NCBI GenBank assembly: GCA_949285665.1
Contig: CASDYC010000002.1
Span: 1 to 56,995, forward strand
DNA: 56,995 bases
Origin: an uncultured bacterium
GTDB taxonomy: Bacteria; Bacillota_I; Bacilli_A; RFN20; CAG-826
Direction: 5' to 3'
The notes under the pieces were generated by a model that did not search any database, was not told the origin of the DNA, and saw nothing but the letters and a program-made list of their open reading frames with translations. Positions 17,065 to 28,618 of the stretch are shown here, piece by piece. Positions within the stretch are counted from its first letter, which is position 1, and the number at the start of each line of letters is the position of its first letter. The translations under genes and the position numbers were made by a program.

Positions 17065-17095
17065 AAAAGACCATTACAGTCCGTAATGGTCTTTT
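17065..17095. terminator. Bidirectional terminator
   Basis: A 13-bp perfect stem (AAAAGACCATTAC/GTAATGGTCTTTT) with a 5-nt loop lies between two convergent genes. The stem ends supply the A and T runs in both directions. Confidence 0.85.
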
Positions 17096-17115: not shown

Positions 17116-18039
17116 TTAGATTAATTGATAAGTAACATTACCATTTTGGTCAATTACTTTTTTAAATACTAAATCATATTCATCATCTGTATTATCATCT
17201 TCAACTTCTACTAAGAAATATGTTTCATTATTATGTTCAACAATCTCAATTTCATATTCCTTGTTATTTAATTCAAGTTCAATTTGATCACGATTTGTTT
17301 TTAAATCTTTTGAAATACCTAAACTATATTCATAAACTTTTCTTCTATTTTGATAAAGTTTATATGTATATTCATCTTCAACTTCATCATCTTCTTGTTC
17401 ATTTTCTTTTTCAATTTGAATAAATGTAGAATCTGATGAATATAAATTAAATGTAGATTCAGTTTCTATTTCTCTACCTTCAGTTTCAGTTTCACTTCTT
17501 GCATCAAAATTATATGTAGTTTCAACATTATTTTCGAAAAAGACTGCAATTCCTGAATATTTTATAACTGTAACTTGTTCATCTCTATCTTCTTGATAAG
17601 TATTTTCAAACACATCGTTATAATATAAACTATAAGAAACTTCGCTTCCATCTAATCCTTTAAAACTAATTACTTCTTTTGTTTTATATTCAGCTTTATC
17701 AGATTCAATAATAGTTGATGTAAAATAATTATTGTTTTCTAAGATTAAATCAAATTGATTTAATAATTTTGTAATAGTTTCTTGATCTTGACTTGAAATT
17801 TGATTTGTACTATTTTCTCTTGCTTTCATAACTGAATTAAAAGTTTGTGGAGAATTTGTCAACAATTTCATAGCTTCTAATCCAGTTGTTGCTTGTTTTG
17901 CAATAATTGATTGGCTTTGAGAAATTATATCTTTATTTGATGTATTGGAATTAATTTCTTGTGATGTTAATGAATTACAAGATGCAAGTGATCCTAAACT
18001 AGCAAGTAATGCGATTGATTTGATTAATGTTTTTTTCAT
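17116..18039 (-). CDS. Lipoprotein of the ECF sigma locus
   Basis: A 307-residue lipoprotein (LASC, Cys21) of unknown function, rich in Asp, Glu, Asn and Thr. Its second half (about 130-300), predicted beta-rich, resembles the extracellular half of the neighbouring anti-sigma-like protein: both have a YSLYxN segment, a YSG segment, an acidic ETExE stretch and an acidic pair of final strands. It has its own promoter with the same bipartite sequence as the sigma operon, so it is a probable target of that sigma factor. A GAAAGAGG ribosome binding site precedes the ATG. Confidence 0.7.
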   Translation of the reverse strand: MKKTLIKSIALLASLGSLASCNSLTSQEINSNTSNKDIISQSQSIIAKQATTGLEAMKLLTNSPQTFNSVMKARENSTNQISSQDQETITKLLNQFDLILENNNYFTSTIIESDKAEYKTKEVISFKGLDGSEVSYSLYYNDVFENTYQEDRDEQVTVIKYSGIAVFFENNVETTYNFDARSETETEGREIETESTFNLYSSDSTFIQIEKENEQEDDEVEDEYTYKLYQNRRKVYEYSLGISKDLKTNRDQIELELNNKEYEIEIVEHNNETYFLVEVEDDNTDDEYDLVFKKVIDQNGNVTYQLI

Positions 18040-18089
18040 ATTTTTTACCTCTTTCTTTCTTTTTTTACATTCATCTTTTGTTTTATATT

Positions 18090-18124
18090 AGTAAATACGA
18101 TTGACTTTAATTTTTTATTGGAAT
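18090..18124 (-). promoter_or_regulatory. Putative ECF promoter of the lipoprotein gene
   Basis: On the minus strand ATTCCAATAA (18124-18115), 14 bp, then TCGTATTTAC starting at 18100. The same two blocks at the same distance precede the sigma gene. CGT in the -10 region and a separate upstream block are typical of ECF promoters. Confidence 0.6.
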
Positions 18125-18175
18125 TTTTTTAAAATTTTTAAAATAATTAAATTTTTATAAACATTTAGTAATAAA

Positions 18176-18205
18176 AAGGAGATTTTAGTTTTCTAAAATC
18201 CCCTT
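18176..18205 (-). terminator. Terminator of the sigma/anti-sigma operon
   Basis: On the minus strand a 13-bp stem (AAGGGGATTTTAG/CTAAAATCTCCTT, one G-T pair) with an AAAA loop is followed by TTTTTATT. It separates the anti-sigma gene from the lipoprotein gene, which therefore needs its own promoter. Confidence 0.8.
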
Positions 18206-18247
18206 ATATAAATTGTTTTATTAAATATTAAGTTTAATTTATAAATT

Positions 18248-19369
18248 TTAATTTTTAATAATATCTTTATAAGATTCTTTAAAATATCTTCTTGAAGTAT
18301 TATTAAATTCTAAATTAAAATCAAATTTTCCGTTATAATCTTCTTCGCTATCAGTTACAAATATATAATATAGATTATCTGATTTAATTTCAGTAAAGAA
18401 TTCATATTCTGCATCATCATATCTATCATTTAAATATTCAACACTTACTTCAATTTGATTATCAGTATTATTTTTTATTAAATTAGATTCTATTTCAAAG
18501 GTGTATAATTCTTCTTTTCTAATTTTATCAATATATGAAAATTGATATTCACTTTCATCAATTTCAACTTCTTTTGAAACACTTCCAATATAATCTTCAA
18601 ATTCAATAATACATTCAATTTCATATTCACCAGTTTCAGCTTCTTTTTCACAAGTTATTGGATAATATTTATTATCTACTTTAATATATCCACTATAAAG
18701 CCATGTTTCTTCATCATCATCTTCTGCAAAATATGCATCTTCATTAATATATAATGAATAAATAACTACATCATTATTTAAAACATCACTTCTGACATTA
18801 AATGTTTTATTATTATATGTAAAATTATCTTCATAAGCTTTTAAATCGAAATTATTACTACTTGAAAATAAAGAATGTACACTTTCAGCAGCCAAATCAT
18901 ATGCATTAACGACTTTTGAAAAATAATTTTGATCTATATTATTATTGATGTTTTCTTTATTAAAACTAGATTTTTTTGAAAGAATAATTGGATTTAAAGC
19001 TTGGGTTGTAGAAGATTCATTTCCACTCATTAAAGAAACAATTTCAAAACTTAATAAATTAGCATCATTTTGATTTAAAATTGGAATTAAATTTCCAGTA
19101 TTTACACTAATTGTAGTATTCTCATTACCATCGTTATTTCCGTTTCTATTTAGTATAAAAGGAAGAGTACAAGCACAAACTAAAGCACCACCACCTAATA
19201 AAGAAGATAAAGAAATTAATAATGATTTATTTTTATTATTACTCTTTTTAATCTTTTTAGGTTTTTTGATTTCTTGAGCTTTAAATTTTGCTAAAACATC
19301 ATCACTATTTAATTTAATTTCATAATTAGATAATTCATCATGTATTTTTTGTTCGTATTTATCTAACAT
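18248..19369 (-). CDS. Membrane-anchored anti-sigma-like protein
   Basis: A 373-residue single-pass protein: a cytoplasmic N-terminus of about 50 residues ending in a Lys-rich stretch, one transmembrane helix (about 50-72), then a large acidic outer domain. This layout, with a 7-bp overlap of its start with the ECF sigma gene, is that of an anti-sigma factor. The outer domain is related to the neighbouring lipoprotein. No zinc-binding (ZAS) HxxxCxxC motif is seen in the N-terminus, so it is either a diverged anti-sigma or a sigma-controlled membrane protein. Confidence 0.65.
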   Translation of the reverse strand: MLDKYEQKIHDELSNYEIKLNSDDVLAKFKAQEIKKPKKIKKSNNKNKSLLISLSSLLGGGALVCACTLPFILNRNGNNDGNENTTISVNTGNLIPILNQNDANLLSFEIVSLMSGNESSTTQALNPIILSKKSSFNKENINNNIDQNYFSKVVNAYDLAAESVHSLFSSSNNFDLKAYEDNFTYNNKTFNVRSDVLNNDVVIYSLYINEDAYFAEDDDEETWLYSGYIKVDNKYYPITCEKEAETGEYEIECIIEFEDYIGSVSKEVEIDESEYQFSYIDKIRKEELYTFEIESNLIKNNTDNQIEVSVEYLNDRYDDAEYEFFTEIKSDNLYYIFVTDSEEDYNGKFDFNLEFNNTSRRYFKESYKDIIKN

Positions 19370-19902
19370 AATTCTTCCTCCTTTATTTCAGCTTTTATTT
19401 TTTTAAGTGAATTTGAATAAATATAAGTAACACTACCAAGTGGAATTTTTAAGTATTTTGATATTTCTTCAAAACCCCATTGTTCCATTACATGTAGGAT
19501 AAATATATTAAATTCTTTTTCATTTAAAATTTTTTCAATTCTTGAGGCAAGATCACTTTGGTTAACATGAGATACAATATTATCACTACTTTTTGAAATA
19601 TGTATTGTATCATCAATTTGAACATCTTTCTTTTTATTTGATTTTAAATAATCAAGAGATATATTTTTTGAAATGACCATCAAAAATCCTAATATATTTT
19701 CATTAGCTTTAATCTTATGAATATTATTTAAAAATCTAATAAATGTATCTTGTAGTAAATCTTCGGCTATTTCTTTATTTTTAACAAATGAATATATGTT
19801 AAAAAACAATGGTTTTTTAACATTTTCAAACAAAATATGAAAGGCAGACTCATTACCATTTCGATAAGATATTACTAAATCTTGAAGCTGTTTGTTTTCC
19901 AT
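19363..19902 (-). CDS. ECF-type RNA polymerase sigma factor
   Basis: A 179-residue sigma-70 family factor with only regions 2 and 4. Region 2 (about 10-80) includes KEIAEDLLQDTFIRFLNNI, the core-binding and -10 melting part. Region 4 (about 120-170) is an HTH with GFEEISKYLKIPLGSVTYIYSNSLKKIK. It is the first gene of an operon with the membrane protein behind it. Its promoter matches that of the downstream lipoprotein gene, which suggests autoregulation. Confidence 0.92.
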   Translation of the reverse strand: MENKQLQDLVISYRNGNESAFHILFENVKKPLFFNIYSFVKNKEIAEDLLQDTFIRFLNNIHKIKANENILGFLMVISKNISLDYLKSNKKKDVQIDDTIHISKSSDNIVSHVNQSDLASRIEKILNEKEFNIFILHVMEQWGFEEISKYLKIPLGSVTYIYSNSLKKIKAEIKEEELC

Positions 19903-19909
19903 AAAGATC

Positions 19910-19952
19910 TTTACATTAATAAATACGAAACAATTTTAAAAATTATTTGAAT
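19910..19952 (-). promoter_or_regulatory. Putative autoregulated ECF promoter
   Basis: On the minus strand ATTCAAATAA (19952-19943), 14 bp, then TCGTATTTAT (from 19928) and TAATGTAAA. The lipoprotein promoter has the same blocks with one mismatch in the first and near identity over about 19 bp in the second. A TTTTAAAAA tract also precedes both. Confidence 0.6.
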
Positions 19953-23168: not shown

Positions 23169-24077
23169 TTAACCTTTAACAGCTCCTCCGGTAACACCAC
23201 TTACATAGTATTTTTGTAAGAACATAAATAATAATGTAATTGGAATAGCAATAACAACTGCGGCAGCACAGAATTGTTGCCAATATGTATTTTTATTTTG
23301 ATAACTACCAATCATTTGATTTAAAACCGTTGCAACAGTACCATTATATGGATGTAATACATATAAATAACTTGCTGTCATAAAGTCACCCCAAGGAGCC
23401 ATAAATGCAAGTAAAGCTGTATAAACAATAATTGGTTTTGAAAGTGGAACAATAATTCTAAAGAATATTTGAACTTGATTTGCTCCATCAATCATGGCTG
23501 CTTCATCAATTGATTTGGAAATTGTATCAAAGAAACCTTTTGATACGTAATATCCCATTCCAGCACCGCCGGAATAAATAATAATAAGAGCGATTAAATT
23601 TTCTTGTAAACCAACTAATTTTGCTAATTGATAAAATACAATTAAGGAAATAAATCCTGGGAACATACCAAGAATTAAGATAATTCTCATCATTAATGTT
23701 CTTGATTTAAATCTACATCTTGAAAAAGCATAAGATGTAAATAATGTTAATAATGTTGAAATAATACAAGAGAATATTGCAACAATTAATGTATTTAAGA
23801 AAGTCATTCCAAAGTTAACTGGATTTGGATATTTAAGATCTCCATAAACTCTCCATTCACCAACTGTAGCATCTAAAACTCTATTATTAAATAAATTAAT
23901 ATAATTATCAAATGTCCATCTATCAGGCCAAAACTTATGTAAACCAGTTAAACCAGCACCATCATAAGCACCTAATGATTGAAGGAATAACCAAACAATT
24001 GGAAGAAGCCAAATTACACATAAAACTACTAATATAATATAAATAAATATATCAGCGATAATTCTTCTAGTTCTCAT
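23169..24077 (-). CDS. malG: Maltodextrin ABC permease MalG
   Basis: Six-helix permease of 302 residues, the second membrane subunit of the maltodextrin importer. The EAA loop reads DEAAMIDGANQVQIFFRIIV, as in MalG. The C-terminus ends in VSGVTGGAVKG, the usual MalG tail. Its start overlaps the malF stop in ATGA. Confidence 0.95.
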   Translation of the reverse strand: MRTRRIIADIFIYIILVVLCVIWLLPIVWLFLQSLGAYDGAGLTGLHKFWPDRWTFDNYINLFNNRVLDATVGEWRVYGDLKYPNPVNFGMTFLNTLIVAIFSCIISTLLTLFTSYAFSRCRFKSRTLMMRIILILGMFPGFISLIVFYQLAKLVGLQENLIALIIIYSGGAGMGYYVSKGFFDTISKSIDEAAMIDGANQVQIFFRIIVPLSKPIIVYTALLAFMAPWGDFMTASYLYVLHPYNGTVATVLNQMIGSYQNKNTYWQQFCAAAVVIAIPITLLFMFLQKYYVSGVTGGAVKG

Positions 24078-27000
24078 TGAAATTCATCCTCCCTTTGAAC
24101 AGCTCCTAATCTTGAATACATAATAAGTGAGAAGAATGCACAGATTAAGAATATAAATAAACCTAATGCGGAAGATATGTTATATCTACTTCTATCACCA
24201 GTAGTTAATGAATATAACCAGTTAATTAACAAGTCAGTTTCTTTAGCATCAAATAAGAAGACACTATTTGTAACTTCACCTGTTAAGAAGAATATAACGT
24301 TGAAGTTATTAATATTTCCAACAAATGTTGTAATTAAGCTTGGTCCGGTAATAAAGAACATGTAAGGAAGTGTGATCTTGAAGAATTGAGTAACTGGACC
24401 TGCTCCATCAATTCTACTTGATTCATATAAATCACTTGGAATGTTCATTAAAATACCACTACACATTAACATTGTATATGGAACACCAACCCAACAGTTA
24501 ATAAGAATAACCATAACTTTTGTAAGATTTGGATCTTTTAAGAATGGTATTTCATTTCCGGTTCCAAGAAGCGAGTTAATTGGCCCTTGCGTCGCGAATA
24601 TATTTGCAACAACCATCAATGAAATAAATTGAGGAATAGCAATTGTTATAACAAATATTGTTCTCCAAACCTTTTTAAGTTTAATAGATTTTTTGTTTAT
24701 TAATAAGGATAAGACAATTCCTAAGAAATAGTTTGTAAATGTTGCAAAGAAAGCCCAAATAAGAGTCCATAACAACAATATACCAATTGTGTAAGGAATT
24801 TTTTCAGCACCATAACTTGTTTGCCAAATGTTCTTACCTGTAAACATTGCAATGAAGTTTTCAAGACCAATCCAATTAAATAATTGAGGATAAATTGTTG
24901 TACTATCATAATTTGTAAAACCAATTAATAGAGAACAAATTAATGGGAATATAGTAACAATTACAGCCCCAACAATTGGTAAGAATAAGATTACTCCAGA
25001 GAATTTATCAGTCAATAATGAGTTAACAGTCTTTTTAAATGGTTTACATTGACCACAATATTCTTCTTCTTGATATCTTGATTTAAAATCATTAACTCTC
25101 TTATTTAATCTTGCAAAGACATAAATATCTGCTAATTCTTCAAGTAATGCATATGGAATAGTTTCACGATCTTCTATTTGACTAAGATCAAATTTTTTAA
25201 CACCCATTTTTTTAGCGACTATTTTTTTGATCTCTTCTAAACTCATTCCTTCATTTTTCTTAGAAATAGTATAATTTACGATATTTCTTGCTCTATCAAT
25301 TACATTTTTATAAGAAATAGCAACTGCTTTTGCAACTTCTCTTGAACATGTAAAGTTAGCGACAATATTACTTGTTGCATAAGCAACATTAAGAGGTCTA
25401 GTAAAATCATATGTTTCAACCTTTTTATTTACTACAAGCGATCTCTTATAAGCGCTTTTTGCTTGTTGTAATTCCTCACTTTGCATACTAGCGATCAATT
25501 TATCACTTTGTAGTGAATTATATTGACCATCAAGTTTATTAATTTTAAGTTGATAACTTTCTTTTAAAGATGCAATATCTTTATTAAGTTTAAGTTTTAA
25601 ATTGTATTTGTCAGCATCAATAGCATTTGGATCATTTTCCAAATCTACTTTATCTTTTCCATAATTTTCTTTAAGCTTTTCAATTTCTGATTTTAGTTCG
25701 ATTTTTAAGTTTTTAATTTCACTTAAAATATCATTCTTTTTATTAAATATTTTTGAATATTTTTCTTTAATTTCATTAATTTTTAAATTGTAAGCTTCTA
25801 ATTTTTCAGCTTCAGATTTAAATTCATTAACTTCATTAAATGTAGTATTCTTTTTATCTAAATTAAAGAAACAATTTATAACATCAACTTTTTGTTTTGC
25901 AACATTACCGTATGCGTTATTAAAATCTAAATAAGTTCTATAAATGTTATATTTATCATATTCGAAGTGATAATTCTTTTCTTCTAATGAAAAATCTTTC
26001 TTGAAGCCATCTCTAACTTTAGAATTGCTTGTTAAGGATTTATTTAATTCTTCAAGATAGCAAACATAATATTGCTCATTTACATTTAAGCCTTCATGAT
26101 TGTTATTAATGAGTTTTACTAAATTAATATTTGCTTGATAAATATTCTTTTTAATAAATAAACTAACATCTTTAGAATATTTTTGAAGAATACTGGCGTT
26201 CCAAACTTCATAATTAAATGAATTAGAAACAATTAATTTTGGTTCTGATATATTAAACAATTTGAAACATTCATCAATATTTTTAATATTAAGTAGCTTT
26301 ATTAATTCAGCATTATCTTCATTTTTAGAAAATTCTTCAAATAATTTAACTAATTCAGCATCATATGATTCTTTAACGCTATCTTTAGTTAATTGATGTT
26401 TTACTCCTGTAAAATGCTTAATAGAGATAACTAATTTATTAAATAATTTTAATTCAGCAAATTTATTTTCTTCGTTAACGCCGTAGTAATTATTAATATT
26501 AGAAACAATATTAGCTTTATTTAATTTCTTAAAATCAAATAATTTTAAAATTTGTAAACCGTCTTTTTCTTTATTGAATTTTTTAATTTTAGAAATATTT
26601 TTACTTGATTTATCTTTTAAGAATGATTCAAAATCTTTATCAAAATTATCAACAATTAATTTACTTTCATAATTTTGGCTAACAAATAATTTATTGAAAT
26701 TATTAATATAAGATAAATATAAGTTTAAAATATTGTTAGCTTCATTTAAATTAATTCTATAAAGACTGCTAATTTCAAATAATACTTCTCTTTTTGAAAT
26801 TTGTTTCAAAGTATTTCTATTAAAATCAAAGAACTCTAATACTTTATTTTTTGTTTCTAAATTGAAAGATTTTGGAACATTATTATATGAATCAACAAAC
26901 TTTTTAAAATTATCTTCAAATGTAGCTAAAAATAGGTCTGTTTTTTCTCTTTCAAGACAATTTTTCTTATAGAAATTGTAGTAATTTAAATATAAATCAT

Positions 27001-28618
27001 ATAATGATTCTCCAACATTAGAATCAAAACTAAGTAAACCTTTTAATTTTAAGAATGTTGATTGTTTATCAAAATATAATTTAACTTTATATTTTAAATT
27101 ATTAAAATCTAAACCATTAAGAATATCTTTATTTGATAATTTTTGTAAAATACCTTCTTTATATTCAGCAATTTGATCCAATAAAGAATTTTTTAATAAA
27201 ATTACATTATTTTCTTTAATATCATTAATATTGAAAAATTTATCTTTTAATAAATCTCTTACATTAAAGTCTGCTTCAATATTGTTAGACTTTAGTAACT
27301 TATTAAATTTTTCAATTAAAGGTTCGACTTCTAATTTAATTACATTAAATTTATCATATAAATCTTTATAGGATGATTTATCTAACTTATAAATATATTT
27401 AAAGTTAAAGTTATAGGCCATTAAAATATCATTATTGATATTAACTTTTTTTAACTCATCACTTAAATATTTATAAACTACTTCTTTATATAAATCATTA
27501 ATTGTTAATTTTTCACCAAGTTCAAATTCTTTATCTTTTAAAGAATTAATCAACATTAAAAATGCATTATGTTGTTCTGGAGTAAAAGTTGATTTAATTG
27601 AATTTAATTTACTACTATCTTGAACAGCTAATTTAAATTTAATTTTAATATGAGATACTAAAGATTCAAAAACATTTTCGTTTAATAAATTAACTTTTTG
27701 TTGTTCATGTTTTTTGAAAAATTCACGATAAATTAAAGGAACTTCATAATACAAATTATTAAAATTCTTATATGATATTAATGAAGAAGCTTGTTTTGTT
27801 AAATTTAGATTATTTCTAAAATATTTATCATTATTAATGCAAAATAATCTTTTAACTTTTCCATTTTTATTAACTCTTACTTGATTTGCTAAATAATCAA
27901 GATTGTCACGCTCGAATAATTTAGAAACTTCTTTATAACCTTTTGAGTATAAATTTCCATATCTTACAATTGTATTACTGTGAGCAGCATTAATATTTCT
28001 ATACCATACATAAATAAATACTAATGTAAATAAAATTGCAATAATACCTAAAATAAGACAAAGAATACTATTATCACCAGGTACAATTTGTTGAATACCG
28101 GTTATTGGATTTTTATCAACATGAGGTCCAACAATACCTGGACCAGACATTCTATAAATATCATATCCGCCTGTTAATATCATATAAATGATATATAAAA
28201 CTTCAAAGGCAATATATAAAATACCATTTAAATATTGACGATGAGCTAATGAAGATGTTCCCATAATAACATAGGAAATTTTTCCATATATATCATCTTC
28301 TTTAAAATATCTATAAATTTTGACTGTTAAAAATTTATAGATACCAACAAAAATTCCAACAAAAATTTTAACAATACCTATTAAAATATTTAATAAAGCT
28401 CTACCAACGTCAATTAAAATAGACAATAAAAATTTACTAACTTTTATTGTTCCATTTAATATTCCATTAAAAATAACTTGATACCATTTAAGAGGTTCAA
28501 AATCCTCAGAAATAGACATCTTTTTTAAAGCTTCTTGGTCAATGTGTGAATTATTAATTGAAGAATTTTTAGTTTCAGTATCTTGTGTCAAAACAGAATT
28601 TGTTTTTTTGTTTTCCAT
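24074..28618 (-). CDS. malF: Giant maltodextrin ABC permease MalF
   Basis: A 1514-residue fusion-like permease, three times the usual MalF length. The N-terminus (about 45-215) holds several hydrophobic segments. A Lys/Asn/Glu-rich region of about 950 residues follows (about 220-1185) with no signal for export, helical throughout, with loosely repeated units of about 85-95 residues and a strong coiled-coil stretch at about 925-1070. A CxxC (about 1183-1186) precedes the true permease domain (about 1195-1510), which has six helices and the EAA loop ESSRIDGAGPVTQFFKITLP. The large region most likely lies in the cytoplasm near the ATPase. No frameshift is seen. A ribosome binding site GGTAGG precedes the ATG, after a terminator hairpin. 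Confidence 0.9.
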   Translation of the reverse strand: MENKKTNSVLTQDTETKNSSINNSHIDQEALKKMSISEDFEPLKWYQVIFNGILNGTIKVSKFLLSILIDVGRALLNILIGIVKIFVGIFVGIYKFLTVKIYRYFKEDDIYGKISYVIMGTSSLAHRQYLNGILYIAFEVLYIIYMILTGGYDIYRMSGPGIVGPHVDKNPITGIQQIVPGDNSILCLILGIIAILFTLVFIYVWYRNINAAHSNTIVRYGNLYSKGYKEVSKLFERDNLDYLANQVRVNKNGKVKRLFCINNDKYFRNNLNLTKQASSLISYKNFNNLYYEVPLIYREFFKKHEQQKVNLLNENVFESLVSHIKIKFKLAVQDSSKLNSIKSTFTPEQHNAFLMLINSLKDKEFELGEKLTINDLYKEVVYKYLSDELKKVNINNDILMAYNFNFKYIYKLDKSSYKDLYDKFNVIKLEVEPLIEKFNKLLKSNNIEADFNVRDLLKDKFFNINDIKENNVILLKNSLLDQIAEYKEGILQKLSNKDILNGLDFNNLKYKVKLYFDKQSTFLKLKGLLSFDSNVGESLYDLYLNYYNFYKKNCLEREKTDLFLATFEDNFKKFVDSYNNVPKSFNLETKNKVLEFFDFNRNTLKQISKREVLFEISSLYRINLNEANNILNLYLSYINNFNKLFVSQNYESKLIVDNFDKDFESFLKDKSSKNISKIKKFNKEKDGLQILKLFDFKKLNKANIVSNINNYYGVNEENKFAELKLFNKLVISIKHFTGVKHQLTKDSVKESYDAELVKLFEEFSKNEDNAELIKLLNIKNIDECFKLFNISEPKLIVSNSFNYEVWNASILQKYSKDVSLFIKKNIYQANINLVKLINNNHEGLNVNEQYYVCYLEELNKSLTSNSKVRDGFKKDFSLEEKNYHFEYDKYNIYRTYLDFNNAYGNVAKQKVDVINCFFNLDKKNTTFNEVNEFKSEAEKLEAYNLKINEIKEKYSKIFNKKNDILSEIKNLKIELKSEIEKLKENYGKDKVDLENDPNAIDADKYNLKLKLNKDIASLKESYQLKINKLDGQYNSLQSDKLIASMQSEELQQAKSAYKRSLVVNKKVETYDFTRPLNVAYATSNIVANFTCSREVAKAVAISYKNVIDRARNIVNYTISKKNEGMSLEEIKKIVAKKMGVKKFDLSQIEDRETIPYALLEELADIYVFARLNKRVNDFKSRYQEEEYCGQCKPFKKTVNSLLTDKFSGVILFLPIVGAVIVTIFPLICSLLIGFTNYDSTTIYPQLFNWIGLENFIAMFTGKNIWQTSYGAEKIPYTIGILLLWTLIWAFFATFTNYFLGIVLSLLINKKSIKLKKVWRTIFVITIAIPQFISLMVVANIFATQGPINSLLGTGNEIPFLKDPNLTKVMVILINCWVGVPYTMLMCSGILMNIPSDLYESSRIDGAGPVTQFFKITLPYMFFITGPSLITTFVGNINNFNVIFFLTGEVTNSVFLFDAKETDLLINWLYSLTTGDRSRYNISSALGLFIFLICAFFSLIMYSRLGAVQREDEFQ

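Follow-up and report, generated by a model that had tools for sequence, protein, structure and literature searches.

A locus of an uncultured bacterium probably encodes a self-contained, autoregulated and envelope-sensing ECF switch with a second output, a free copy of the switch's sensor that is anchored in the membrane. At the level of sequence, this reading is supported by two promoters of one design, a terminator, co-variation of the promoters across relatives, and homology between the two extracytoplasmic proteins. The window, i.e. the whole stretch of DNA that we analysed, comprises 56,995 nt (contig CASDYC010000002.1, assembly GCA_949285665.1; CAG-826, in Bacillota_I; Bacilli_A; RFN20).

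The sigma locus and its promoter sites

The sigma factor (179 aa; 19363..19902, minus strand) scores 61 bits against the ECF superfamily model TIGR02937 (cut-off 42.9) and 37 bits against Pfam Sigma70_r2 (cut-off 24), while Sigma70_r4_2, at 25.1 bits, falls just under its cut-off of 25.7. Among the NCBIfam models listed for this protein, all named subfamilies lie below cut-off and the superfamily model is the only one above. The protein has sigma2 and sigma4 domains only, which is the domain content of ECF group IV. The following gene, which overlaps the sigma gene by 7 nt, encodes the presumed anti-sigma factor (373 aa; 18248..19369, minus strand), with a short cytoplasmic part, a single hydrophobic segment near residue 58 and then an acidic ectodomain. 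No Pfam or NCBIfam family matches it above cut-off; its position and architecture are conserved, in that a gene for a single-pass membrane protein overlaps or adjoins the sigma gene in the 24 three-gene loci compared. The sigma/anti-sigma unit closes with an intrinsic terminator on the minus strand (18176..18205, the stem running from 18205 to 18176; -15 kcal/mol, z = -3.8), as the first-pass annotation had stated. Since this terminator stands between the anti-sigma gene and the lipoprotein gene (307 aa, lipobox Cys-21; 17116..18039, minus strand), the lipoprotein seems to need a promoter of its own. A hairpin 3′ of the lipoprotein gene (17065..17095; symmetrical, and reported on the plus strand) is a probable terminator. 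Elsewhere in the window, alpha-amylase-like genes adjoin an ORF of 1514 aa (24074-28618) whose C-terminus resembles an ABC permease and whose N-terminal extension is very long.

The first-pass annotation had placed matched ECF promoters upstream of the sigma and lipoprotein genes, and both were found where it put them: the 33-nt cores occur with 0 mismatches on the minus strand at 19920-19952 (sigma) and 18092-18124 (lipoprotein). The presumed autoregulatory promoter of the sigma operon (19910..19952, minus strand), which has a counterpart 5′ of the sigma homologs of relatives, consists of the -35 box CAAATAA (19949-19943), a 15-nt spacer and the -10 box CGTATTTA (19927-19920), with the ATG 17 nt further on. 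The second ECF-type promoter (18082..18124, minus strand), 5′ of the lipoprotein gene, consists of CCAATAA (18121-18115), a 15-nt spacer and again CGTATTTA (18099-18092), with the ATG 52 nt further on. Shuffles of the window gave a mean of 0.53 motif matches at up to three mismatches, and two perfect sites are thus unexpected.

We scanned the organism's own genome (1.03 Mb, 6 contigs) with the bipartite motif, allowing up to 3 mismatches and using the reversed pattern as a control. This gave 16 matches versus 7 for the control: three with 0-1 mismatches and 13 with 3, but none with 2. The three best-matching sites are the two in the window and C1:450451-450483 (1 mismatch), which precedes a CvpA gene (Colicin_V, E 2e-19), and they alone lie between genes and are followed, 17-52 nt further on, by an ORF start. 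Of the other 13, 11 fall within ORFs; L011 is located in the tmRNA gene, antisense to it, and L005 is outside any ORF of at least 80 aa, with no start downstream. The scan hence turned out as the first-pass annotation had anticipated: its best matches stand 5′ of the sigma operon, the lipoprotein gene and CvpA, an envelope gene, and nearly all weak ones are intragenic. The regulon in this genome is tiny, with three sites.

A promoter profile built from sigma-upstream sites, with the sigma site of the window in the training set and the lipoprotein site outside it, gave the following ranking in the same genome: the lipoprotein site came first (E 8e-5), followed by a site inside an ORF (0.003), the sigma site (0.015), whose -35 box CAAATAA departs from the consensus, and the CvpA site (0.023). 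The second-ranked site (C1:272286/272289) was rejected as being antisense inside an ORF, and C1:748079, which has 0 mismatches to a shorter pattern, was discounted as being antisense inside the tmRNA gene. CvpA was also rejected as a core target: its site is genuine in the own genome, but a comparable site stands next to the gene in 0 of the 16 CvpA loci of relatives examined (17 scanned, including the own locus), the best other score being 13.3, about 800 bp away, in L239. As an aside, positions 1357-1731 of another locus (L128) hold a tmRNA gene with the tag GNRNYAYAAA.

Promoter pairs across the order

Sigma homologs were found in 37 of the 56 genomes searched, the own genome included. The motif upstream of these genes in relatives reads CCAAYAA, almost always 15 nt, and YGTWWWWA. 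CCAAYAA occurs within 250 nt upstream of 32 of the 35 top-scoring sigma homologs (shuffles: mean 1.4, maximum 4) and of 1 of 26 more distant ECF genes, where the cut between near and distant was drawn at the point at which ranking and motif both change, so that this contrast, unlike the shuffle control, is partly circular. The boxes are 15 nt apart in 22 cases and 16 in 3, with other values occurring singly, and the Y of CCAAYAA is T in 21 and C in 8 of the 29 aligned sigma-upstream sites, in which YGT is also present. Judged by sequence alone, the motif has the AAC-like -35 and the CGT -10 of ECF group IV. What relatives conserve is the two boxes, CCAAYAA and YGTWWWWA, with the 15-nt spacer. 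By column counts, neither of the flanking elements of the first-pass annotation, TTTTAAAAA and TAATrTAAA, is conserved as such in relatives, where the position of TTTTAAAAA is only AT-rich, and both were dropped as specific elements.

A strict form of the pattern has 29 sites in the 56 genomes, versus 7 for the reversed control. By our own reading, sigma genes and lipoprotein genes account for 9 sites each, 4 precede other genes, and 7 are intragenic or unresolved. Many are paired, 1.55-1.83 kb apart, and the order promoter, sigma gene, single-pass membrane protein gene, promoter, lipoprotein gene recurs across genomes, the motif of the lipoprotein gene coming about 1.6 kb after that of the sigma gene. 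In several loci (e.g. L019, L021 and L022) the sigma start codon lies only ~11-13 nt from the first -10 base, and the sigma mRNA may be nearly leaderless there. Two genomes, G006 and G133, have sites ending in TGTATATA upstream of other membrane-protein genes (L164, L177, L191), and a multi-TM protein, instead of the lipoprotein, is encoded after the anti-sigma gene of G006, which looks like turnover of the regulon in these genomes.

A profile search across 279 genomes of the order found the lipoprotein family in 107, from which 60 regions were fetched. A sigma gene lies 1.05-2.0 kb upstream in 45 of these regions, and the other 15 have no sigma gene nearby. The sigma-linked regions, minus three repeats and plus the earlier loci, make up 66 systems. 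The promoters of 58 systems are of one class at both sites (CCAAYAA-like, with a few CAAATAA), those of 8 are of a second class at both sites (GTAATAA-N15-CGTTT), and none is mixed. With strict boxes the same 66 systems comprise 42 pairs of the first class, 7 of the second, 0 mixed, and 17 that fail at one or both sites, the system in the window being among these 17; 100 rounds of shuffling produced no pair under the strict definition.

The -10 octamers also vary together within pairs. In 21 systems, 151 of 168 positions agree within the pair, versus 103.6 after permutation (p <= 5e-5), and across 42 unique pairs the agreement within a genome is 6.86 of 8 positions, versus 4.62 permuted, in tests that ignore the relatedness of the systems. 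By position, 56 of 58 agree at position 4 and 55 of 58 at position 1, but only 41 of 58 at position 7. Comparisons of -10 boxes that are independent of the tree yield 2-3 independent pairs on supported branches, mostly in the expected direction and none or hardly any in the opposite one, a number too small for significance. The spacers, used as a control, are slightly elevated as well (94 versus 79.4 permuted, p 0.019, 20 systems), as would fit a recent duplication or gene conversion that made the two promoters alike without selection. However, agreement is much stronger in the -35 and -10 boxes than in the spacer and extends across 66 systems, and two lipoprotein genes that lie on other contigs (L161, L152) retain their site; we give this explanation next to no credence.

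The change of promoter class has a counterpart in the sigma factor. As the GTAATAA class forms one well-supported branch of the sigma tree, the switch counts as a single event. Three region 4 residues of the sigma factor change along with it: 156 from G to S, 160 from W/Y to V, and 164 from mostly N or E to R; they are 3 of the 20 columns that separate the classes. By their position, these residues, spaced by four, sit in the presumed -35-reading helix. Two genomes, G023 (L035, L213) and G052 (L192, L209, L210), contain more than one sigma system, with boxes that differ between systems; those of their systems that have a linked lipoprotein gene have boxes matched to that gene's.

The regions without a nearby sigma gene provide a further comparison: the motif is kept in 6 of these 15 and missing in 9, versus kept in 35 of the 45 sigma-linked regions (strict definition; p 0.01). 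One alternative is that the two boxes are an operator or a housekeeping promoter rather than ECF sites, as the AT-rich DNA, with its plentiful sigma-70-like matches, might suggest. Such matches are not above shuffles, however (28 versus a mean of 30.8), the spacer is fixed at 15 nt, the boxes co-vary with the sigma class, and several of the 9 lipoprotein genes that lack both motif and sigma gene bear, by our own reading, sigma-A-like boxes instead. We consider either of these roles very unlikely. The two sites behave as expected of promoters of the local ECF sigma factor, as first proposed for the window, in that they recur at the same two places order-wide and the -10 variants of a genome match each other.

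The lipoprotein and the anti-sigma ectodomain

Profile comparison shows that lipoprotein and anti-sigma ectodomain are homologous, a relation absent from the first-pass annotation. Profiles of 21 anti-sigma proteins and 22 lipoproteins match with a probability of 99.8 (E 1e-29, 245 columns), and an earlier comparison of the ectodomains alone, 24 versus 24, gave E 4e-22. The lipoprotein profile also matches the neighbouring anti-sigma gene (e.g. E 5e-36 in G017), and the two proteins of G040 align at 31% over 390 residues. Direct BLAST comparison of partners does not reveal the homology in every pair: it is weak for the pair in the window (P0002/P0003, E 0.010), not significant in L202 (E 0.12) and L208 (E 6.3), and, with composition correction off, does not rank the own pair first in most genomes. 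Both domains are strongly acidic, with median net charges of -12.7 (anti-sigma) and -13.6 (lipoprotein) per 100 residues (24 each), versus -4.9, -4.8 and -16.1 in just three comparison lipoproteins, and such shared acidity can inflate homology scores. The predicted structures of both proteins have the same order, a helix followed by about 14-15 antiparallel strands, the anti-sigma model being only moderately confident (pLDDT 64.5). Foldseek found 0 matches to the PDB at E <= 0.001 for either model, and the best VIA-align Z score, 8.7 (outer-membrane barrels, an usher protein and similar), is near the range of models without a clear match.

What the lipoprotein does with this domain could be read in several ways. 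In the sigma-E response, RseB is an extracytoplasmic partner that modulates the anti-sigma factor RseA and shields it from proteolysis; RseB is not known to be a copy of the RseA ectodomain. By analogy, the lipoprotein might pair with the anti-sigma ectodomain and shield it from proteolysis, and its induction would then re-lock the switch. The shared domain, the long antiparallel strand meander of the model and the sigma gene that lies a short way upstream in 45 of the 60 regions would all fit such a partner, but the 15 regions without a nearby sigma gene speak against it, and we think this role rather unlikely. Alternatively, the lipoprotein could be a plain effector that shares the ligand-binding domain of the sensor and has no feedback on the switch, much as RsgI sensor domains recur in sigma-I target proteins. 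Sensor and output do have the same domain under one promoter class. Among more distant loci, moreover, the anti-sigma ectodomain looks RsgI-like in L052 and L202, and the lipoprotein of L052, a Clostridia locus, has the same motif, which we take to be RsgI-like. Against a plain effector stands the finding that no enzyme domain of Pfam or NCBIfam scores above cut-off in the lipoprotein, and on balance we regard this alternative, too, as fairly improbable.

A proposed circuit and its relation to known systems

In ECF systems, a membrane protein holds the sigma factor until a signal arrives, often with RseP-type cleavage. In the switch that we favour, the co-encoded single-pass membrane anti-sigma factor would likewise bind and inhibit the ECF sigma factor, and a signal reaching its ectodomain would free the sigma factor, perhaps through proteolysis by the RseP-like protease of the genome. 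An M50 protease is encoded in the own genome and likewise in all 14 control genomes, and hence says little about this step. Free sigma factor would direct RNA polymerase to CCAAYAA-N15-YGTWWWWA at its own operon, a positive autoregulation presumed from the conserved upstream promoter, and to the second matched promoter, from which the lipoprotein gene beyond the terminator would be transcribed. At the cell surface, the lipoprotein may then bind the ligand of the anti-sigma factor, which would both protect the cell and shut the signal off. This last, limiting step, taken alone, is plausible but falls somewhat short of probable. More tentatively still, these loci could form an order-wide class of switches in which the main output of the sigma factor is a free, lipid-anchored sensor copy that acts as a decoy or governor, titrating the signal and making the response self-limiting, and in which the sigma helix residues and both promoters switch together (CCAAYAA to GTAATAA), keeping parallel copies orthogonal. 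Given the acidic domain, the titrated signal is perhaps a cationic peptide or a metal.

The nearest lipoprotein in a sigma operon that we know of is CseA. This extracytoplasmic protein is encoded in the Streptomyces sigE operon, and its loss up-regulates the sigE promoter (PMC6767563). Both lipoproteins are encoded with an ECF sigma gene, a functional analogy only. In Streptomyces, a two-component system is required for sigE, the promoter of which is no sigma-E target (PMC6767563).

ECF group IV offers another parallel: it, too, has a two-domain sigma factor with a promoter at its own operon and a co-encoded membrane anti-sigma factor, which is a presumed one here. As outlined in PMC8103513, the hallmark of its promoters is AAC at -35 and CGT at -10; here, an AAC-like core is contained in CCAAC/T and the -10 core in YGT. 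The present -35 box differs in being extended to CCAAYAA, mostly with AAT rather than AAC, and the second matched promoter here would serve a gene for a homolog of the sensor domain. Cellulolytic clostridia have sigma-I/RsgI systems in which specialised promoter boxes are likewise common to the sigma gene and its targets, and several parallel sigma factors differ in specificity (PMC6056542). The outputs of those systems are carbohydrate enzymes, in contrast to the lipoprotein homologous to the anti-sigma ectodomain found here, and sigma-I factors are listed apart from ECF factors (PMC6056542). The sigma factor in the window passes the ECF superfamily cut-off (TIGR02937). The literature that we searched, chiefly at the level of abstracts, contains no description of the lipoprotein/anti-sigma pairing.

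As far as this literature shows, then, the parts are of known kinds, and what is new is their combination: a conserved matched promoter pair, a lipoprotein with homology to the ectodomain, and a switch of specificity common to the sigma factor and both promoters. Little is known of how small-genome, uncultured Bacilli respond to stress, and for these bacteria the locus offers a regulatory circuit whose promoter code can be read. In 66 systems the specificity of each sigma factor can be read twice, once per promoter, and the natural specificity switch singles out a few residues of the sigma factor. Should the lipoprotein prove to be a sensor decoy, the circuit would be a simple feedback design that is directly testable and could be reused in synthetic circuits.
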